Positions 14,180 through 34,708 of a DNA stretch of 35,362 bases are shown piece by piece. The position numbers were made by a program, and so were the translations under genes. Under the pieces are notes generated by a model. It was not told the origin of the DNA and did no database searches. It saw nothing but the letters and a program-made list of their open reading frames with translations. Every line of letters begins with the position of its first letter. Positions within the stretch are counted from its first letter, which is position 1. The stretch spans positions 1 through 35,362 of the forward strand of contig JAJYJJ010000020.1 in NCBI GenBank assembly GCA_021789595.1, in the 5' to 3' direction. Source of the DNA: Nitrospirota bacterium. GTDB taxonomy: Bacteria > Nitrospirota > Thermodesulfovibrionia > UBA6902 > JAJYJJ01.

Positions 14180-14917
14180 ATGCGTCCAGATGGAAGAATG
14201 CCAGATGAGATAAGGATAGTAAAGTTGACAAGGAATTTTATACCGACGGCAGAGGGCTCTGTCCTTATAGAGCTCGGAAACACAAGGGTAATATGCACAG
14301 CCTCTATAGAAGAGAAGGTTCCACCATTTCTCAGGGACCAGAAAAGGGGATGGATTACAGCAGAGTACTCCATGCTGCCCCGCTCCACAGTAAGCAGAAC
14401 TCCAAGGGAATCTGTAGCAGGCCGCATTGGCGGAAGGACACATGAGATACAGAGACTGATTGGCAGGTCATTGCGTGCGGTTACTGACCTGAATATCCTT
14501 GGAGAAAGGACCATCTGGATAGACTGTGATGTCATACAGGCAGACGGCGGCACAAGGACAGCATCCATAACAGGGGCATTTATCGCCCTTTCTGACGCAG
14601 TCAGGCATGCATTAAGGGCTGGACTTATAGAAAGAACGCCGATAAAGGACTACCTTGCTGCAGTAAGCGTTGGGATAATCAGCGGCGAACCAAGGCTTGA
14701 CCTATCATATGCAGAGGACTCCATAGCAGATGTGGATATGAATGTGGTTATGACAGGCTCTAAAAAATTTATAGAGGTCCAGGGGACTGCAGAGGCAGAG
14801 CCATTTGGAAGGGATCTTCTGGATAAACTCCTTAAGATGGCAGAGGATGGTATCATACAATTGATAAATATACAGAGAGAACCCATTGAAAAGGCTTCAG
14901 ATAGTCTTAGCTACTAA
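14180..14917 (+). CDS. rph: Ribonuclease PH
   Basis: Phosphorolytic 3'-5' exoribonuclease that trims tRNA 3' ends. [38 protein letters not shown], the arginine-rich [28 protein letters not shown] and [15 protein letters not shown] are all present. Length (245) is normal. A strong GGAGG lies seven bases before the ATG. The 47-base gap after murI contains a small imperfect hairpin without a T-run. The 3' end overlaps rdgB by 32 bases. Confidence 0.97.
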
Positions 14918-15488
14918 GAATACAGGAAAACTCAGGGAGATAAGGGAGATACTGGGCGACATCCCTATAGAGTTTCTCACACTTCAATCATTCCCCGATG
15001 CACCTGATGTGGAGGAAGATGGTCATTCATACAGGGAAAATGCCCTTAAAAAGGCAACAGCAATCTTTAATCACACATCAATGTTAACCATGGCAGAGGA
15101 TTCAGGCCTTGAGGTGGAGGCGATTGGTAATGCACCTGGCATATACTCTGCCCGTTTTTCAGGGAAGGATGCAACCTCCAAAAAGAATATCGAAAGGCTC
15201 CTTTCCATGATGAAGGATATACCTGCAGAGAGGAGGACAGCAAGGTTTGTCTGTGTCCTTGCACTTGTAGGCATGGGGATAGAGCAATTTTTTGAGGGAG
15301 AGGTAAAAGGGACAATAGCCCTGCATGAAATGGGGGAAAGCGGGTTTGGATATGACCCTGTTTTTATACCTGACGGCTATGAAAATAGCTTTGCAGAACT
15401 TGGCAAAGAGGTTAAAAACAGGATAAGCCACAGGACAGCAGCCCTGAGAAGGTTCAAGGAGTTCATGGATAATTATCAACAACGCTAA
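14886..15488 (+). CDS. rdgB: dITP/XTP pyrophosphatase (RdgB/HAM1 family)
   Basis: Hydrolyses dITP, XTP and ITP to monophosphates, keeping deaminated purines out of DNA and RNA. The substrate motif [16 protein letters not shown] is at the N-terminus. [24 protein letters not shown] holds the catalytic Asp, and [12 protein letters not shown] plus [10 protein letters not shown] complete the pocket. At 200 residues it is normal. The start is a TTG at 14886 inside the rph end, required by the conserved N-terminus. Note the theme: other enzymes linked to deaminated bases (endonuclease Q and the radical SAM gene) lie 5-13 kb downstream. Confidence 0.95.
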
Positions 15489-15668
15489 GATGCTTGAAAT
15501 TTGAAAGAGGCATGTAAGAGGCTAAATAAACAAAGAGTTATGCCCAAAGCCAACGAGGCGACGGATACTGATTTAAAGGTTATTGAGAGGCTGGAAGCGG
15601 GGGGGGTATAATGTTTTCTGGAAATTATTTATAATTATGGCAATCCTTAATATAGGATAAGGAGCAGT

Positions 15669-15856
15669 ATGGCAAAGGGGAGAAAGCCGAAAAAATCAGG
15701 CTCTAACGATATTGAAGCCTACAGGCATGAGAGCGAGACGAGAAAAAATGCTGCCCCTGTAGGTCTTGCCTCTTATGACACCTCAAAGCCCAAACCCAAA
15801 AGTATGAATATGACCCGCATCTTGATCCCCAGCTTGTCTGGACTGGGAAAATATGA
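15669..15856 (+). pseudogene. Remnant of a type III-like DNA methyltransferase, N-terminus only
   Basis: Begins MAKGRKPKKSGSNDIEAYRHE and continues to SKPKPK in one frame. In the next frame (from about 15800) it reads KYEYDPHLDPQLVWTGK, a segment I know from the N-terminal part of Mod-type adenine methyltransferases (Y-x-Y-D-P-x-L-D-P-x-L-x-W-x-G). The two halves join if one base is restored in the A-rich run near 15798, so this is a frameshifted N-terminal scrap. Everything after W-T-G-K, including the catalytic domain, is missing. The second-frame stop TGA (15854-15856) overlaps the next start as ATGA. GGAG lies ahead of the ATG. Confidence 0.7.
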
Positions 15857-16206
15857 AGAATAAATCTATCTTGCCGCTTGATAAAGCCTATAAAGACATT
15901 AAGGACATACTCGAAAAAGCCAGCGCAAAGTCTTTCAAGGCTGTTAATACGGCAATGGTGCAGGCTTACTGGCATATCGGAAAGGTAATTGTAGAAGAAG
16001 AACAGAAAGGGATTGCGCGTGCGGGATATGGAAAGGGGCTTATTCAAGGACTTGCCAAACGACTGTCTGCTGAATTCGGCAGGGGATTTGATGAAAGAAA
16101 TCTTTGGTTTATGCGCAGTTTTTATTTATCCTACCCAAAAGTGAACGCAGTGCGTTCAGAATTAAGCTGGACACACTACCGGTTATTACTAAGAGTAGAG
16201 AAATGA
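15853..16206 (+). pseudogene. DUF1016 (YhcG-like) protein, N-terminal domain only
   Basis: 117 residues matching the DUF1016 N-terminal domain: VNTAMVQAYWHIGKVIVEEEQ, YGKGLIQGLAKRLSAEFGRGF, NLWFMRSFYLSYPKV and LSWTHYRLLLRVE. Full-length relatives are ~340 residues with a C-terminal PD-(D/E)xK nuclease domain, absent here; the frame stops right after LLRVEK. Family members sit in restriction-modification loci. The stop TGA overlaps the next fragment's ATG (ATGA at 16203). It could still make a stable N-terminal domain, but I treat it as a truncated gene. Confidence 0.8.
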
Positions 16207-16337
16207 AAGACCTTTTAAATAAAATCGACTCTATCAAATCAGCCCTCGATAAGTATCGGCCTTTTCCCGACCACGTTGTCAAACAGTTAAGGGATTATTA
16301 TCGCATTAATCGGATAATTGCAGAGGTGCGGGAGTAG
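16203..16337 (+). pseudogene. Fragment resembling the N-terminus of a Fic-type protein
   Basis: 44 residues, MKDLLNKIDSIKSALDKYRP and FPDHVVKQLRDYYRI, resemble the start of short Fic proteins (K-I-D-x-L-x(5)-R-P-L-x(6)-L-R-x(3)-R-I), which would next run into the S-N-A-I-E-G-N motif. Here similarity stops at about residue 37 and the frame ends at TAG. The match is short, so the family call is moderate. The start overlaps the previous stop. The next 155 bases (16338-16493) show only very short open frames and nothing I recognise. Confidence 0.5.
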
Positions 16338-16493
16338 TGAAAGCATCACCACCGCATGGGGCGGGACAGTGGAGGCTATGAGATTAATGAGCCGATCATG
16401 AACTCACGCCCCGGACATTGAGGCAAAGATTACAGGACGAGGGGAAAGAGATGACGGAGGCAGGAGAAAGGTTTATAACGGGAGAAAGGAAAT

Positions 16494-16568
16494 ATGGTTT
16501 TAAAATCAGTTGAACCTCAAAATGTGGAATTCAAATCCAACTGGAGAGATGATGCTGGTGATGTTTAA
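16494..16568 (+). pseudogene. Fragment resembling the start of an AlbA_2-domain protein
   Basis: 24 residues read MVLKSVEPQNVEFKSNWRDD before stopping. E-x-x-N-[VL]-E-F-K-x-x-[WY]-R-D-[DE] is the usual opening of AlbA_2 putative DNA-binding domains in ATPase-like regulators of defence loci. AAAGGAAAT precedes the ATG as a ribosome site. The frame ends inside the first codons of the intact Fic gene, an overlap expected if the two were once adjacent coupled genes. The rest of the protein is gone. Confidence 0.5.
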
Positions 16569-17595
16569 ACCGAATTTTCGGTATACCGACAAAATAGTCA
16601 GCGATCTTACTCAGATAGCCGCTGCAAGGGAACTCGTGCTGAATTCTCCTTTTATTCCAAAATGGGAGGCCTCTCTCCGCCGGGAAGCGATTATCAGGTC
16701 TGCCCATTCATCAACCGCCATAGAAGGAAACAGACTGTCTCTGGAACAGGTCAGCGAGCTTGCGCAAGGCCGTGAAATCATGGCAACGCGAAAAGACAAG
16801 CAGGAAGTTCTGAATTATCTCAAAGTTCTCGAATCCATTGACAAACTCGCAGACGGCAAGATTAACGAAAAAAATCTTTTGCATATACATAAACTATTAA
16901 CAAAAAATACCCTCGAAAATCCTTCTGATTGCGGTGTTTATCGCACCCGCTATGTTGTAGTCGGGAACAGACTGACGGGAGAGGTTATTTTCAGGCCGCC
17001 TTCAAATGAAGATGTTCCACGGTTAATGAAAGCATTAATTGCATGGGTAAACTCTCCTGAGGCAAAGAGTCTTGACCCAGTTATAGAGGCAGGCGTTGCC
17101 CATTATGAATTTGTGCGAATCCATCCCTTTGTGGACGGTAATGGAAGAACAGCCCGTGTCCTTGCAACCATGATACTCTATCTTAGAGGTTTTGATGCGA
17201 AGCAGTTCTTCTGTCTGGATGACTACTATGACTCTGACAGACCTGCATATTACAGGGTTCTTCAGGGCGTGGATCAGAAGACCCTTGATTTAACCAAATG
17301 GCTTGAATATTTTGTTGAAGGCGTTAAGGTAAGCATTGCGTCTGTCAAAGAAAGGGTTATACGCCTCAGCAGTGAAAGACTGAGAAAGACGACAAAAGGG
17401 CAAATTGCTTTGACTGAAAGGCAGATGAAGATCGTAGAATTTATCAACCAGAATGCCCGCATAACAAATCGGGATGTGCGGGATATGTTTGAATTATCTG
17501 ACGAAGCTGTGCGGAAGGAGATTACCAAACTCACGAAGATAGGCGTTTTAAAGGGCAAAGGCAAAGGACGGGCAGTCTATTATGTCCTTCTATAA
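16552..17595 (+). CDS. Fic-domain AMP-transferase with C-terminal winged helix
   Basis: An intact protein of about 347 residues. The active site HPFVDGNGRTAR matches HPFx(D/E)GNGRxxR, so it should transfer AMP (or a similar nucleotide group) from ATP to a protein hydroxyl. The inhibitory helix motif SSTAIEGN ([S/T]xxxE[G/N]) lies N-terminal to the core, so it is self-inhibited (class II). The C-terminus (LTERQMKIVEFINQNARITNRDVRDMFELSDEAVRKEI) is a winged helix-turn-helix, suggesting DNA binding or autoregulation. GGAG is five bases before ATG 16552; ATG 16561 (MFKPNFRYTD) is an alternative closer to the usual family start. It is the only complete gene among the surrounding restriction-locus fragments. 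Confidence 0.9.
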   Translation: MLVMFKPNFRYTDKIVSDLTQIAAARELVLNSPFIPKWEASLRREAIIRSAHSSTAIEGNRLSLEQVSELAQGREIMATRKDKQEVLNYLKVLESIDKLADGKINEKNLLHIHKLLTKNTLENPSDCGVYRTRYVVVGNRLTGEVIFRPPSNEDVPRLMKALIAWVNSPEAKSLDPVIEAGVAHYEFVRIHPFVDGNGRTARVLATMILYLRGFDAKQFFCLDDYYDSDRPAYYRVLQGVDQKTLDLTKWLEYFVEGVKVSIASVKERVIRLSSERLRKTTKGQIALTERQMKIVEFINQNARITNRDVRDMFELSDEAVRKEITKLTKIGVLKGKGKGRAVYYVLL

Positions 17596-17596
17596 T

Positions 17597-17632
17597 GGTT
17601 GGCGATTAGGTTGGTGATTAGGTTGGCGATCA
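17597..17632 (+). repeat. Three 12-bp tandem repeats just after the Fic gene
   Basis: GGTTGGCGATTA, GGTTGGTGATTA and GGTTGGCGATCA lie head to tail directly after the Fic stop codon. Each unit differs from the next by one or two bases. No function is evident; slippage at a deletion endpoint would explain it. Confidence 0.75.
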
Positions 17633-17666
17633 GGAAAAGTCTGGTTTATGATTAGAAGGGGGTACA

Positions 17667-17747
17667 GTGTCATTAGCCGTTGACAACCCGATTTTAAACA
17701 ATCCCTTTGAAGAACCGAGGGAATACTGGATTTTTATAAGCTTCTAA
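17667..17747 (+). pseudogene. N-terminal scrap of a Res-like restriction helicase
   Basis: From GTG 17667, after an AAGGGGG ribosome site, 26 residues read MSLAVDNPILNNPFEEPREYW and then IFISF and stop. A-[IV]-[ED]-N-P-I-L-N-x-P-F-x-E-P-x-x-[HY]-[WF] is how DEAD/DEAH restriction helicases of the type III-like kind begin (the BPTD_3080-like group, from memory). The gene is cut after about 21 matching residues. As the last fragment of the array it mirrors the Mod scrap at the other end, as expected for a collapsed mod...res locus. The bases from here to mqnA (17748-17798) hold nothing notable. Confidence 0.6.
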
Positions 17748-17798: not shown

Positions 17799-18599
17799 TT
17801 AAATAAGTTTATATTTCTTTAGATATTCTTCAAAAAGTCCTAACCCCTTCATGTGCCTTTCTTTGAGGTCGTATGATATCCCTTTCCAGTAGGACACAAG
17901 TTCATCTTCTGAAATGACAGCCCTTAGAGGCGATGCCTCTGCAATAATACTCAGATCCTTGAGTGCAGTTTCTTTTGCATGGTTTAAATCGTTCCTGAAT
18001 CTTTCAAAAAGTTCCTTTTCTTCAACGCAGCAATCCCTGCCTGTAATCCACAGGGCAAAGACAAAGGGAAGCCCTGTATATCTATACCATAGCTCTCCAA
18101 GGTCATAGATATAGAGTTTGTGCCATTTGCGGGCCTCTATCAGTGCTTCATCGCCAATAAGAAGATAGGCTGTATTTGACCGAATAGCCTCTTCAAGGAC
18201 TTGTCCTGACGGTCTTAGACGGCAGTCTATCTCATAGAATTCCTTCAAGATAATCTCAAGTAAAGCAGTAGAGGTCTCAGACTGTGACGATGTAAGGATA
18301 TCCAATCCTGCCAATGTCTCTATGGGCCTCCTGCTGAAAAGAAATATGCTTCCCACAGGTCCTTCGGAGCTTATGGAATGACCATTGATAAGGATGTATC
18401 TATCCCTATTCCTCATATACTCGATGGATGAAGAGGGACTGATGTCTATCCTGCCTTCCCTCACCAGCCTGTTGAGGCCCGACGGCACACCGTCTATAAA
18501 TTCATATTTAGAGCAATCACTGTCTCGTTGCAGGATGTAGAATATCGGGAATAGATTTGCGTATGCGATTCTGCCAATCCTGAGTCTGCGGTTAGTCAA
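17799..18599 (-). CDS. mqnA: Chorismate dehydratase, futalosine-pathway menaquinone synthesis
   Basis: MqnA removes water from chorismate to give 3-enolpyruvoyl-benzoate, the first step of the futalosine route to menaquinone. The 266-residue protein starts RLRIGRIAYANLFPIFYIL. It has GVPSGLNRLVREGRIDISPSSSIEY, the region around SISSEGPVGSIFLFSRRP and LLIGDEALIEA, and the LGELWYRYTGLPFVFALW stretch typical of the MqnA/MqnD fold. It stands without other mqn genes in the window and may be co-transcribed with the ArsR gene just upstream (22 bases). It fits an organism using menaquinone for anaerobic respiration. Confidence 0.92.
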   Translation of the reverse strand: MTNRRLRIGRIAYANLFPIFYILQRDSDCSKYEFIDGVPSGLNRLVREGRIDISPSSSIEYMRNRDRYILINGHSISSEGPVGSIFLFSRRPIETLAGLDILTSSQSETSTALLEIILKEFYEIDCRLRPSGQVLEEAIRSNTAYLLIGDEALIEARKWHKLYIYDLGELWYRYTGLPFVFALWITGRDCCVEEKELFERFRNDLNHAKETALKDLSIIAEASPLRAVISEDELVSYWKGISYDLKERHMKGLGLFEEYLKKYKLI

Positions 18600-21846: not shown

Positions 21847-22173
21847 TTAGATTTCTGTCCCATCGAGCATTGCGCTCCATAACCTGCCTGTTCTTTTGTA
21901 TGTCCTGTTTATATACTGAGTATAACAAAGGGTTACTCCCTGCATCATTTTGTGTAGGGACTCTTCTTTTTTCGGCCTCGCCAATAAGTGAACATGATTG
22001 CTCATAAGACAGTAGGCAAGGACAGGTGAGTTCCATTTATCTGCATATTTATTGAGTAACGATAAATAGTTCTCTCTGTCTTTCTTATTGAAGAAAAACT
22101 TTTCCTTATTATTTCCTCTTTGGACTATATGATGTGGAAAACCTACTGCAACCGCTCTTGCTATTCTCGGCAT
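21847..22173 (-). pseudogene. REP-associated tyrosine transposase (Y1/HUH), C-terminally truncated
   Basis: A 108-residue piece starting MPRIARAVAVGFPHHIVQRG. It contains the HUH-type metal motif in LMSNHVHLLARP and the presumed nucleophile Tyr in TLCYTQYINRTY. Full proteins are ~200-250 residues and continue after G-R-L-W with a conserved Trp/Arg block; here the frame becomes unrelated (SAMLDGTEI) and stops. So the catalytic core is mostly present but the end is lost. A TTGACA on the minus strand (22212-22217) may be its promoter. It lies at the junction with the truncated hemerythrin gene. Confidence 0.75.
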
Positions 22174-32161: not shown

Positions 32162-32959
32162 GTGAAAATACCACTTTCATACAGTTTGCGTAATCTCTTG
32201 ACAAGAAGGCTTACAACAACACTTACAGCTTCAGGAATGGCGCTTGTGGTATTTGTGTTTGCCTCGGTTCTGATGCTTTCCGAAGGGCTCAGAAAAACCC
32301 TTGTTGAGACAGGCTCTTATGATAATGTGGTGGTAATCCGCAAGGGAGCAAATTCAGAGGTCATGAGCGGGGTTGAGCGGCTTCAGGCTTCCATAATAGA
32401 GACACAGCCCGAGGTTGCCATTGGAGAAAACGGCCAGAGACTGATCGCTAAAGAAATAGTTGTGCTTGTAAATCTTTTGAAAAGAGGAAGTAACAAGCCT
32501 TCTCTTGTCCAGATTAGAGGTATTGATAAATTTTCAATGATTTTGCGTCCGCAGGTTAAACTAATACAGGGCCGCATGCCAAAATCTGGCTCATCTGAGA
32601 TAATCGCAGGTTCAAGCATAGATAGAAGGTTCAAAGGAGGAGGACTGGGGGAGATGCTCCATTTTGCTATGAGAGACTGGACTGTGGTGGGGGTGTTTGA
32701 AGCAGGCAATACGGGATTTAATTCTGAGATCTGGGGAGATGCAGACCAGCTCATGCAGGCATTCAGAAGGAATGCCTATTCATCAGTGATTTTCAAGCTC
32801 CGCAACTCTTCTGAATTTCAAAGATTTAAAGAAAGGATAGAGAGCGAGCCCCGCCTTACCCTTGAGGCAAGGCGTGAAACAAGATACTATGCTGACCAGT
32901 CAGAGATGATGACAAAGTTTCTCAGTATCCTCGGCTTATCACTGACAATAATCTTTTCT
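32162..32959 (+). pseudogene. Second FtsX/MacB-type permease, 5' part before the IS
   Basis: Starts MKIPLSYSLRNLLTRRLTTTL with one membrane helix (MALVVFVFASVLMLSEGL) and the periplasmic domain. At residue 266 (LSLTIIFS) the coding DNA is cut by the insertion sequence; the open frame runs on into the IS to 33040 with unrelated residues. Removing the IS and one target copy joins this to 34340 in frame and gives a 388-residue protein like its neighbour. As it stands the three C-terminal helices are detached, so the exporter is probably inactive. Confidence 0.92.
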
Positions 32960-32985
32960 GGCTCTTCTGGAAAGAGTGTGGGTAA
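32960..32985 (+). repeat. Left terminal inverted repeat of the ISL3 element
   Basis: 26 bases, exact reverse complement of 34306-34331. The target duplication TCTTTTCT lies directly outside at 32952-32959. Confidence 0.95.
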
Positions 32986-32998
32986 TTTTTTGCATTTT

Positions 32999-34218
32999 TT
33001 ATATCTCCTTGAGCATACAGGTAAGGATTTTAAGCCTTAAGTACTCCTCATCTCTTAAACCGTAAGCCCTTCTCTGTATAACCCTGATCTTATTATTCAG
33101 TCCCTCTACAAATCCCAATGATACTTTGTTTTCAGGTCTTGAGTATGCTGCAATACCCTCCCAATGTTTCTCAATCATCTCCGCAAACAACTCGTAAGAT
33201 TTTAACCTCTGCCATTTCAATGATTCCTTCCAGTTGTCAAAAAATCTCCGCGCCCATCCCTCCGTCTGATAACTCCATAACTGCCCAAATGATTCCTTTA
33301 GCAGATAGGCAGTATTAAGCCGTTTGTTTGCCGTAAGCAGCTTCTTTAATGCCTTCCTTCCATCAAGGGTAAGGTTCTCCCTGTTTGATAGCAGTGTGTA
33401 TTTTTGCCCTTTGATGTAGGAACGGTCTTTACCGGAAAGCCTTGCATATTCCATCTTCCGCACTGTGTCCAATGCCTCTCCCAGATGCCTCATTACATGA
33501 AACTTGTCATAAAGAATCGCTGCCTGGGCTGCATTCTTCTTTGTAGATTTCTTAAATGCCTTCCACATATCCATTACTGCCAACTGTATCTTCTTTGTCT
33601 TCTTTTGCCCAAGCCATTGGTAAAATATATCAAGACTTTCTTCAGACCGATCTTTGCCTCCAAACCAAATAGGTCTTCTACGCTCTATGTCGCTTACTAC
33701 TACCCGATAGGTATGCCCCTTCCTTAACGATACTTCGTCTATCCCAATGACACGAGGCGCAGCAACAGGATTTCTCTCAAGCTGCTTCTCCATATACTCT
33801 TTGTCCAATGCCTTCACAGTTTCCCAGTCCAGCTTGAGTTCCTTCGCTGCATCCTTTATCGTCATCCCACGACACTTCCGTCCTGCATAATAGGCAAACC
33901 GCTTCGTGTAAAAGGGATTGTTCGCTATCCACTCCAGCTTCTCCGTCTTCACTTTGCCGCACTCCCGACATAATACCCGTCGAACCTCCACTTCCAGATA
34001 TACCCTTGCATCCCCACATGATAAATCCCGTATCCATCGCACCTTCTTGTCGTAATGACTCCGATGGACCTTGCCACAACATCCACATACTGTTTTTTTT
34101 GAGTCCTTTCAAGCCGAATAACCCGTGCCTTCGGGTCTCCAAATATCCCCTTAACTTCTGCTTTCGGACGAAACCCGGGGAACCGATATTCGTCCAGCAG
34201 CTTCCTCTTTTTTCGCAT
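32999..34218 (-). CDS. ISL3 transposase, probably made by -1 frameshifting
   Basis: Two frames make one protein. The first runs from ATG 34218 for 42 codons (ending RVIRLERTQKK) to an A8 run at 34093-34100. Slipping back one base there continues TVCGCCGKVHRSHYDKKVRW into the long frame ending at 32999, total about 406 residues, the normal ISL3 size. The shift restores the N-terminal zinc element (CGCC ... CRECG), whose first half is lost if translation starts at 34042. The catalytic core includes PRVIGIDEVSLRKGHTY, QLAVMDMWKAF and the late Glu in SLGFVEGLNNKIRVIQRRAYG. Either programmed slippage or a one-base mutation in the A run; I cannot tell which. Confidence 0.82.
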
Positions 34219-34305
34219 ATAAAGATCATACAGATTTTTCTACCTTAAAGAAACTTCTTTTTTCCCTTATTTTATGCTATTCTATGGCTAATTTATGGCT
34301 CATTT

Positions 34306-34331
34306 TTACCCACACTCTTTCCAGAAGAGCC
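34306..34331 (-). repeat. Right terminal inverted repeat of the ISL3 element
   Basis: 26 bases, exact reverse complement of 32960-32985. The second copy of the target duplication follows at 34332-34339. Confidence 0.95.
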
Positions 34332-34339
34332 TCTTTTCT

Positions 34340-34708
34340 TTTGGAGCCGTTGTCGGAGCAATGATTACAATGTATGCTGCGGTTGCAAACCGCACAGACG
34401 AGATCGGCACTCTCCGCGCTCTCGGTTTCCGGAGAAGAAATATACTTATGGCATTTCTTGGGGAGTCACTGCTCTTGGGTTTTATTGGCGGGTGTGTCGG
34501 ACTATTTTTTGCCTCTTTCATGCAGCTTCTTACAATTTCGACGATGAACTGGCAGACATTTTCAGAGCTTGCTTTTTCATTTTCGTTGACTTTTGAGATT
34601 ATTTGCAAGTCTCTGTTTTTTTCATTGGTCATGGGCTTCGTGGGTGGTGTGCTTCCGGCATTTCGTGCAGCGAGGATGAATATTGTTGATGCCCTGAGGA
34701 TAACTTAG
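34340..34708 (+). pseudogene. Second FtsX/MacB-type permease, 3' part after the IS
   Basis: Continues the frame of the 5' part: FGAVVGAMITMYAAVANRTDEIGTLRALGFRRRNILMAFL (the coupling region, matching the first permease), then the last membrane helices and the end AFRAARMNIVDALRIT. A start inside the IS (34295) would read through into it, but would give only the C-terminal helices. It is the last gene of the efflux operon. Confidence 0.92.

Follow-up and report, generated by a model that had tools for sequence, protein, structure and literature searches.

A row of amino-terminal gene stumps around an intact Fic gene in a Nitrospirota defence island

Architecture of the stump row

The window, by which we mean the whole stretch of 35,362 nucleotides that was analysed, comes from a groundwater-type Nitrospirota bacterium and carries an island between two housekeeping genes, rdgB and a mqnA-like gene. 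From 5' to 3' on the plus strand, the island consists of an extra stump, a leader with a palindrome, Mod-N, DUF1016-N, Fic1-N, a leader segment, AlbA_2-N, Fic2 and Res-N, where the suffix N marks an amino-terminal stump (Table 1; comparison genomes and loci carry G and L numbers). An earlier note, made from the letters alone, had named stumps of Mod, DUF1016, Fic, AlbA_2 and Res proteins, and both the coordinates and the family names hold when tested on intact relatives, with Mod assigned to N6_N4_Mtase and MTase_III, Res to ResIII, AlbA_2 to SLFN_AlbA_2 and Fic1 to PF02661. That list of five was sound but incomplete, having overlooked the extra start stump next to rdgB. The stumps are conserved at the DNA level (80-94%) in independent assemblies, which excludes a chance origin.

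Table 1. Features of the island and its flanks, in window positions except for the last line
Feature	Position	Strand	Remarks
rdgB (Ham1 family), left flank	14886..15488	+	PF01725, E=1e-63
Extra amino-terminal stump	15540..15611	+	23-codon ORF, MPKANEATDTDLKVIERLEAGGV then stop
Candidate island promoter, TTGAGA-18-TATAAT	15583..15612	+	promoter-like; 11/12 consensus match
Leader palindrome ATCCTTAATATAGGAT	15643..15658	+	5' of Mod-N; read from the sequence
Mod-N, type III Mod stump	15669..15863	+	~60 codons, frameshifted near codon 46
DUF1016-N	15853..16206	+	117 codons; PF17761, E=9e-34, profile 1-104 of 137; start overlaps Mod-N stop
Fic1-N, first Fic stump	16203..16337	+	Fic to ~16310, then short tail INRIIAEVRE and stop; start overlaps DUF1016-N stop (ATGA)
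Leader segment	16347..16493	+	repeated in other islands ahead of AlbA_2 or other genes
AlbA_2-N	16494..16568	+	first ~17 codons homologous; stop overlaps Fic2 start
Fic2, intact	16561..17595	+	344 aa; PF02661, E=2e-21; PADLOC SoFic, E=2.4e-63
Fic2 N-terminal inhibitory motif STAIEGN	16711-16731	+	
Fic2 Fic motif HPFVDGNGRTAR	17122-17157	+	
3' tail, short tandem GGTTGGCGATTA units	17597..17637	+	also after Fic2 in G156; remnant in G401
Res-N, ResIII-type restriction helicase stump	17667..17747	+	GTG start; homologous to ~17735
mqnA-like menaquinone biosynthesis gene, right flank	17799..18599	-	PF02621, E=2e-63
Intact Mod homologue in G067	L131:4397-6916		N6_N4_Mtase, PADLOC MTase_III

The outer members of the row belong to a type III restriction-modification system. 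Across 59 aa, Mod-N shares 61% identity with an intact type III Mod of 839 aa in genome G067. Res-N resembles the beginning of a ResIII protein in the same genome (83% identity, 23 aa), where Mod, accessory genes and Res form an intact locus. This locus, which supplies the nearest relatives of both stumps, is an intact counterpart of the kind that the earlier note had proposed to seek, and its existence upholds the family names. The type III-like order that was claimed for the row is likewise borne out, since the Mod and Res starts bracket accessory genes in the order mod, accessory, res on a single strand, as in G067. The island differs from such a locus in that both of its Mod and Res are nonfunctional: in place of a complete mod gene with an N6/N4 methylase domain it has only ~60 frameshifted N-terminal codons, the last ~20 of them out of frame because one base is missing after KPKPK, and of a res gene, which in full would encode helicase and nuclease domains, it retains no more than ~23 homologous N-terminal codons. 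The palindrome-bearing leader of Mod-N is also conserved in G012. Promoter-like sites are no more numerous in the island region than in shuffles, a limit that applies to the candidate promoter of Table 1.

The inner stumps are similarly traceable to full-length genes. The window's own genome has an intact Fic of 254 aa elsewhere (L002), with which Fic1-N shares 78% identity across 37 aa, and tails similar to its last codons occur in islands L106, L114 and L125. AlbA_2-N matches intact SLFN_AlbA_2 genes of 464-477 aa, with similarity spanning from ~20 bases 5' of the start to ~codon 17. The start of the extra stump gave 16 matches in 11 of 296 genomes of the phylum; almost every match sits in an open frame 37-63 aa long, a single one lies in a frame of 885 aa, and variants of the stump occur in L104, L113, L114 and L118.

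The one intact gene of the row is Fic2, for which the earlier description of a self-inhibition motif and a winged helix is confirmed. The protein fits both the Fic motif HPFx(D/E)GNGRxxR and the inhibitory motif (S/T)xxxE(G/N) of class II, SoFic-like proteins, ends in a C-terminal winged helix and has relatives of known structure that include 4rgl and SoFic itself (3zcn). It thus shares the Fic core, the N-terminal inhibitory motif and the C-terminal winged helix with SoFic-type proteins, although its sequence similarity to the solved proteins is modest. With dN/dS of 0.08-0.17 against its relatives, Fic2 is under purifying selection, and it is, judged by sequence, the surviving functional gene of the row, a self-inhibited SoFic-like protein with a predicted AMP-transferase role.

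Starts and junctions shared among Nitrospirota islands

When the island region was compared with 60 relatives, it matched piecewise and at unrelated places. The most widespread piece is the AlbA_2 start (ATGGCTTTAAAATCAGTTGAATC...), which matches at least 22 of 396 genomes of the phylum, a lower bound with two candidates scored per genome. Among relatives, including loci fetched later, ~20 loci have the start only versus ~5 intact copies, and the similarity ends at varied points from ~codon 13 to ~codon 56. The genes that follow this start are of at least five kinds, namely Fic2, another Fic (MPFKPKFTITPKIN), MNT-HEPN, MazE/PemK-like (MazEF-like) pairs and DUF1016, and some copies of the stump have lost the start codon or gained a stop. 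A search of 84,980 species genomes for the exact pattern turned up 13 loci, almost all of them from metagenome-assembled genomes of Nitrospirota and one from a genome that carries the label Planctomycetota. The latter (L079:5243-6500, VGXX01000017.1) holds an AlbA_2-N stump, DUF1016 and a Res-N stump of the window type, and reflects either transfer across phyla or a misbinned contig.

The other starts behave alike. The Res start recurs between cassettes of other islands, and 19 of 396 genomes have a match to its joint with a toxin-antitoxin (TA) leader; Mod-N stumps elsewhere precede HsdM (L111), DUF5615 and a helicase (L028) or ORF6N (L114). We read the stumps as probable footprints of repeated gene swaps behind older starts because the same starts, in many cases with the same cut points, recur in related bacteria before many different genes for toxins and defence. 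Another long row, L114 at the cysS/rlmB site of G199 (contig C11), has Mod-N and Res-N stumps at its ends and, between them, ORF6N, DUF262-type and other defence-like genes together with a broken AlbA_2 gene.

Whole junctions are shared as well. The window and G012, which belong to different families, are collinear from the extra stump through Mod-N into DUF1016, and have in common the Mod-N/DUF1016 junction ...TGGACTGG(A/G)AAAATATGAAG(A/G)ATAAATCTATC. DUF1016 then breaks at codon 117 in the window, where the Fic1 start follows, and at ~codon 145 in G012, where the gene, which carries the window-type Mod-N leader, runs straight into CRISPR-like repeats of the CGGTTCATCCCCGCATATGCGGGGAACAT type (L024:4869-5081). 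The window, G003, G156 and G170 have the same AlbA_2-N/Fic2 joint, and G168 has it with a small insertion; the flanks of the joint differ (rdgB/mqnA, sdhB, dGTPase/hemA, cysS/rlmB), so that three genomes or more carry it at another place in the chromosome. The recurrence of the two joints across sites and lineages indicates that they are pre-formed pieces that were moved or copied. Carriage by known plasmids or phages was considered and rejected: the island region matches no phage, its matches on plasmids are limited to two short ones in the DUF1016 region, and the AlbA_2-start pattern has no match in viral contigs.

The preference for gene starts that had been proposed for the row describes the window (six of six stumps), but it is not exclusive in the sister islands, in which C-terminal remnants also occur: Mod C-termini in three loci, the AlbA_2 pieces described below in another three and the Fic2 3' end in G401. 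A strict start-only bias is therefore rejected. Start-to-end ratios are themselves inflated in favour of starts because nearly all comparison loci were fetched with start sequences, and an automatic classification of fragments into 32 N-terminal, 22 C-terminal and 23 internal pieces is noisy, non-independent and biased by retrieval. A control with the AlbA_2 3' end matched 2 of 296 genomes, both remnants, versus 22 of 396 for the start, a comparison that falls short of proof since the AlbA_2 subfamilies diverge at their 3' ends and the genome samples differ.

Signs of insertion at related sites

Two sister sites are filled in some genomes and empty in close relatives, all of the genomes compared being from families other than that of the window. 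The dGTPase/hemA site is empty in G295 and apparently in G335, and is filled with different genes in G156, G401 and G188. Within one genus this site ranges from empty (G295) to AlbA_2-N followed by Fic2 (G156) to DUF1016 with a 3' remnant of Fic2 (G401), and the last of these looks like replacement of an occupant because the Fic2 remnant was kept behind DUF1016 and the genes following AlbA_2-N differ from those of G156. G168 and G119 have an occupied prepilin-peptidase site; in five other genomes (G170, G052, G142, G363 and G199) this site is empty.

In three loci, an inserted cassette has an intact gene on one side and, on the other, a partial copy (73-118 bp) of that gene's start. The genes are APS kinase in L029 (copy of 89 bp, 97%), prepilin peptidase in L105 (118 bp, 91%) and a phosphotransferase-like gene in L189 (73 bp, 81%). 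With identities of only 81-97%, at least some of these copies must be old or come from a diverged donor. The duplicated end in L027 is instead the 3' end of the gene (248 bp, 83%), and no target duplication remains at the window island. Direct repeats that carry the Res start separate TA cassettes in L125 and L103, and other direct repeats separate the cassettes of L191. AlbA_2 itself is split in L103, L117 and L120, where the newcomers have its start on their left and its 3' or internal parts on their right, an arrangement that places the newcomer inside an old AlbA_2 gene.

Origin of the row

The row is probably, though this is held with considerable reserve, a mosaic defence/TA island formed by repeated insertion or replacement at gene starts, followed by deletion. 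Small defence or TA genes would insert at, or swap in behind, the starts of residents (Mod, AlbA_2 and Res, but also housekeeping genes), entering by short-homology recombination or with a long target duplication. The promoter and ribosome-binding region of the resident and its first codons would remain on the left, where the newcomer would use them as its expression site, be expressed and hence be kept, and the resident body would be lost or leave a remnant on the right. Several such rounds would have produced the window row, with joined pieces (Mod-N plus DUF1016, AlbA_2-N plus Fic2) spreading between genomes as units and later deletion within DUF1016 and Fic1. The order of these events is inferred, as are the recombination route (through short homology or with a long duplication of the target) and the idea that newcomers are expressed from the left-hand start. 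What weighs against this reading is that DUF1016-N (351 bp) is longer than the duplications seen, which calls for a deletion or another kind of cut, and that no recombinase was linked to the islands. The loss of any target duplication from the window, the duplicated 3' end in L027, the divergence of the duplicated starts and the start bias introduced by retrieval count against it too.

The earlier note had instead taken the row for a collapsed restriction locus. In such a collapse in place, a complete type III locus with accessory genes at rdgB/mqnA would have undergone successive deletions that spared the promoter and the downstream gene that was needed. This is unlikely, albeit with some evidence behind it: the outer Mod to Res order is that of the intact G067 locus, G199 has a second such row with accessory genes between Mod-N and Res-N, and clean internal deletions of Mod do exist, its N-terminal part being joined to the C-terminal part in L140 and the two ends lying close together in L105. 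However, the junctions of the row are common to other families and sites, the same stumps stand before different genes elsewhere, and newcomers lie within split AlbA_2 genes. Rather less likely is that the stumps are selected, translated leader ORFs whose ribosome-binding site and first codons drive the next gene through start-stop coupling, an idea close to the earlier suggestion of selection for coupled starts. The tight stop-start overlaps at three junctions of the window, together with close coupling at several other AlbA_2-N junctions, fit translational coupling as far as sequence can indicate it, and the restriction of AlbA_2-N similarity to the surroundings of the start, as well as dN/dS of 0.19 for Mod-N and ~0.24 for AlbA_2-N (the latter from pooled, non-independent pairs), point the same way. 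Yet lasting coding selection on Mod-N is doubtful given its frameshift in the window and an in-frame stop in G012, some AlbA_2-N copies lack a start or contain a stop, several stumps end 20-75 bases or more ahead of the next gene, and the low dN/dS may date from the time when the genes were whole.

The repeats at gene starts might also be the recombination sites of an integron-like or other dedicated site-specific system that assembles cassettes. Consistent with this are the arrays of L125, L103 and L191, in which each cassette has one repeat, and an integron-integrase gene in the window's genome, but the repeats fold no better than shuffles (z ~0), the island and the arrays tested lack attC-like box pairs, junction positions vary and the integrase gene is on contig C4 whereas the island is on C12, making such a system very improbable. 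An integron/attC origin of the joints is rejected on the grounds of the lack of paired boxes, the shuffle-like folding and the location of intI on another contig. Integron TA cassette arrays do resemble the islands in that related short repeats separate the cassettes and that both empty and full sites exist; the islands differ in having gene starts as joints, with neither attC-like structure nor an adjoining integrase. Finally, misassembly could have collapsed full-length genes in a draft genome of 36 contigs, an explanation we consider scarcely credible because identical junctions appear in independent assemblies, at other sites and from other laboratories.

The pieces and the general process invoked by the favoured reading, insertion and replacement at gene starts, are of a known kind. 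Two papers (PMC1643837, PMC3031569, citing Nobusato et al. 2000) describe restriction-modification genes that insert with long, variable target duplications. L029, L105 and L189 resemble that description in that long, variable direct target duplications flank their inserts, and two sister sites do so in that they are empty in close relatives. The islands differ from what those papers describe in that the inserts are mostly TA or accessory cassettes, the duplicated stretch is typically a gene start, repeated rounds leave rows of starts, and the window is without a remaining duplication. The open-licence papers searched on restriction-gene remnants and TA cassette arrays held nothing matching, and in this literature we did not find the accumulation of gene starts as joints of TA/defence cassettes across Nitrospirota, which we regard as the new element. 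Short orphan ORFs ahead of toxin or defence genes are usually taken for annotation noise, whereas in this row the order of past occupants can still be read from them. They illustrate how small defence genes may move with no transposase in sight, to places that already offer a promoter and ribosome-binding site. Since sister genomes include empty as well as filled sites, both the mechanism and a possible preference for gene starts can be put to a direct test. A bolder version, in which an undescribed and active Nitrospirota cassette system places TA/defence genes behind duplicated or captured gene starts as expression sites, is decidedly speculative and in our view improbable; if true, rows of starts would record successive occupants.

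The integron-integrase match in the window's genome is full-length and over the cut-off (G000:C4:162436-163368, 427 bits); a simple scan around it, to the contig end, found no attC-like pairs, and a transposase-like fragment lies at the edge of this contig. Elsewhere in the window, a small truncated ORF on the minus strand (21847-22173) resembles the start of a REP-associated/IS200-type transposase (MPRIARAVAVGFPHHIVQRGNN), and an ABC-transporter permease gene (32162-34708) is seemingly split into halves at 32162-33040 and 34295-34708 by a transposase-like ORF on the minus strand (32999-34042).
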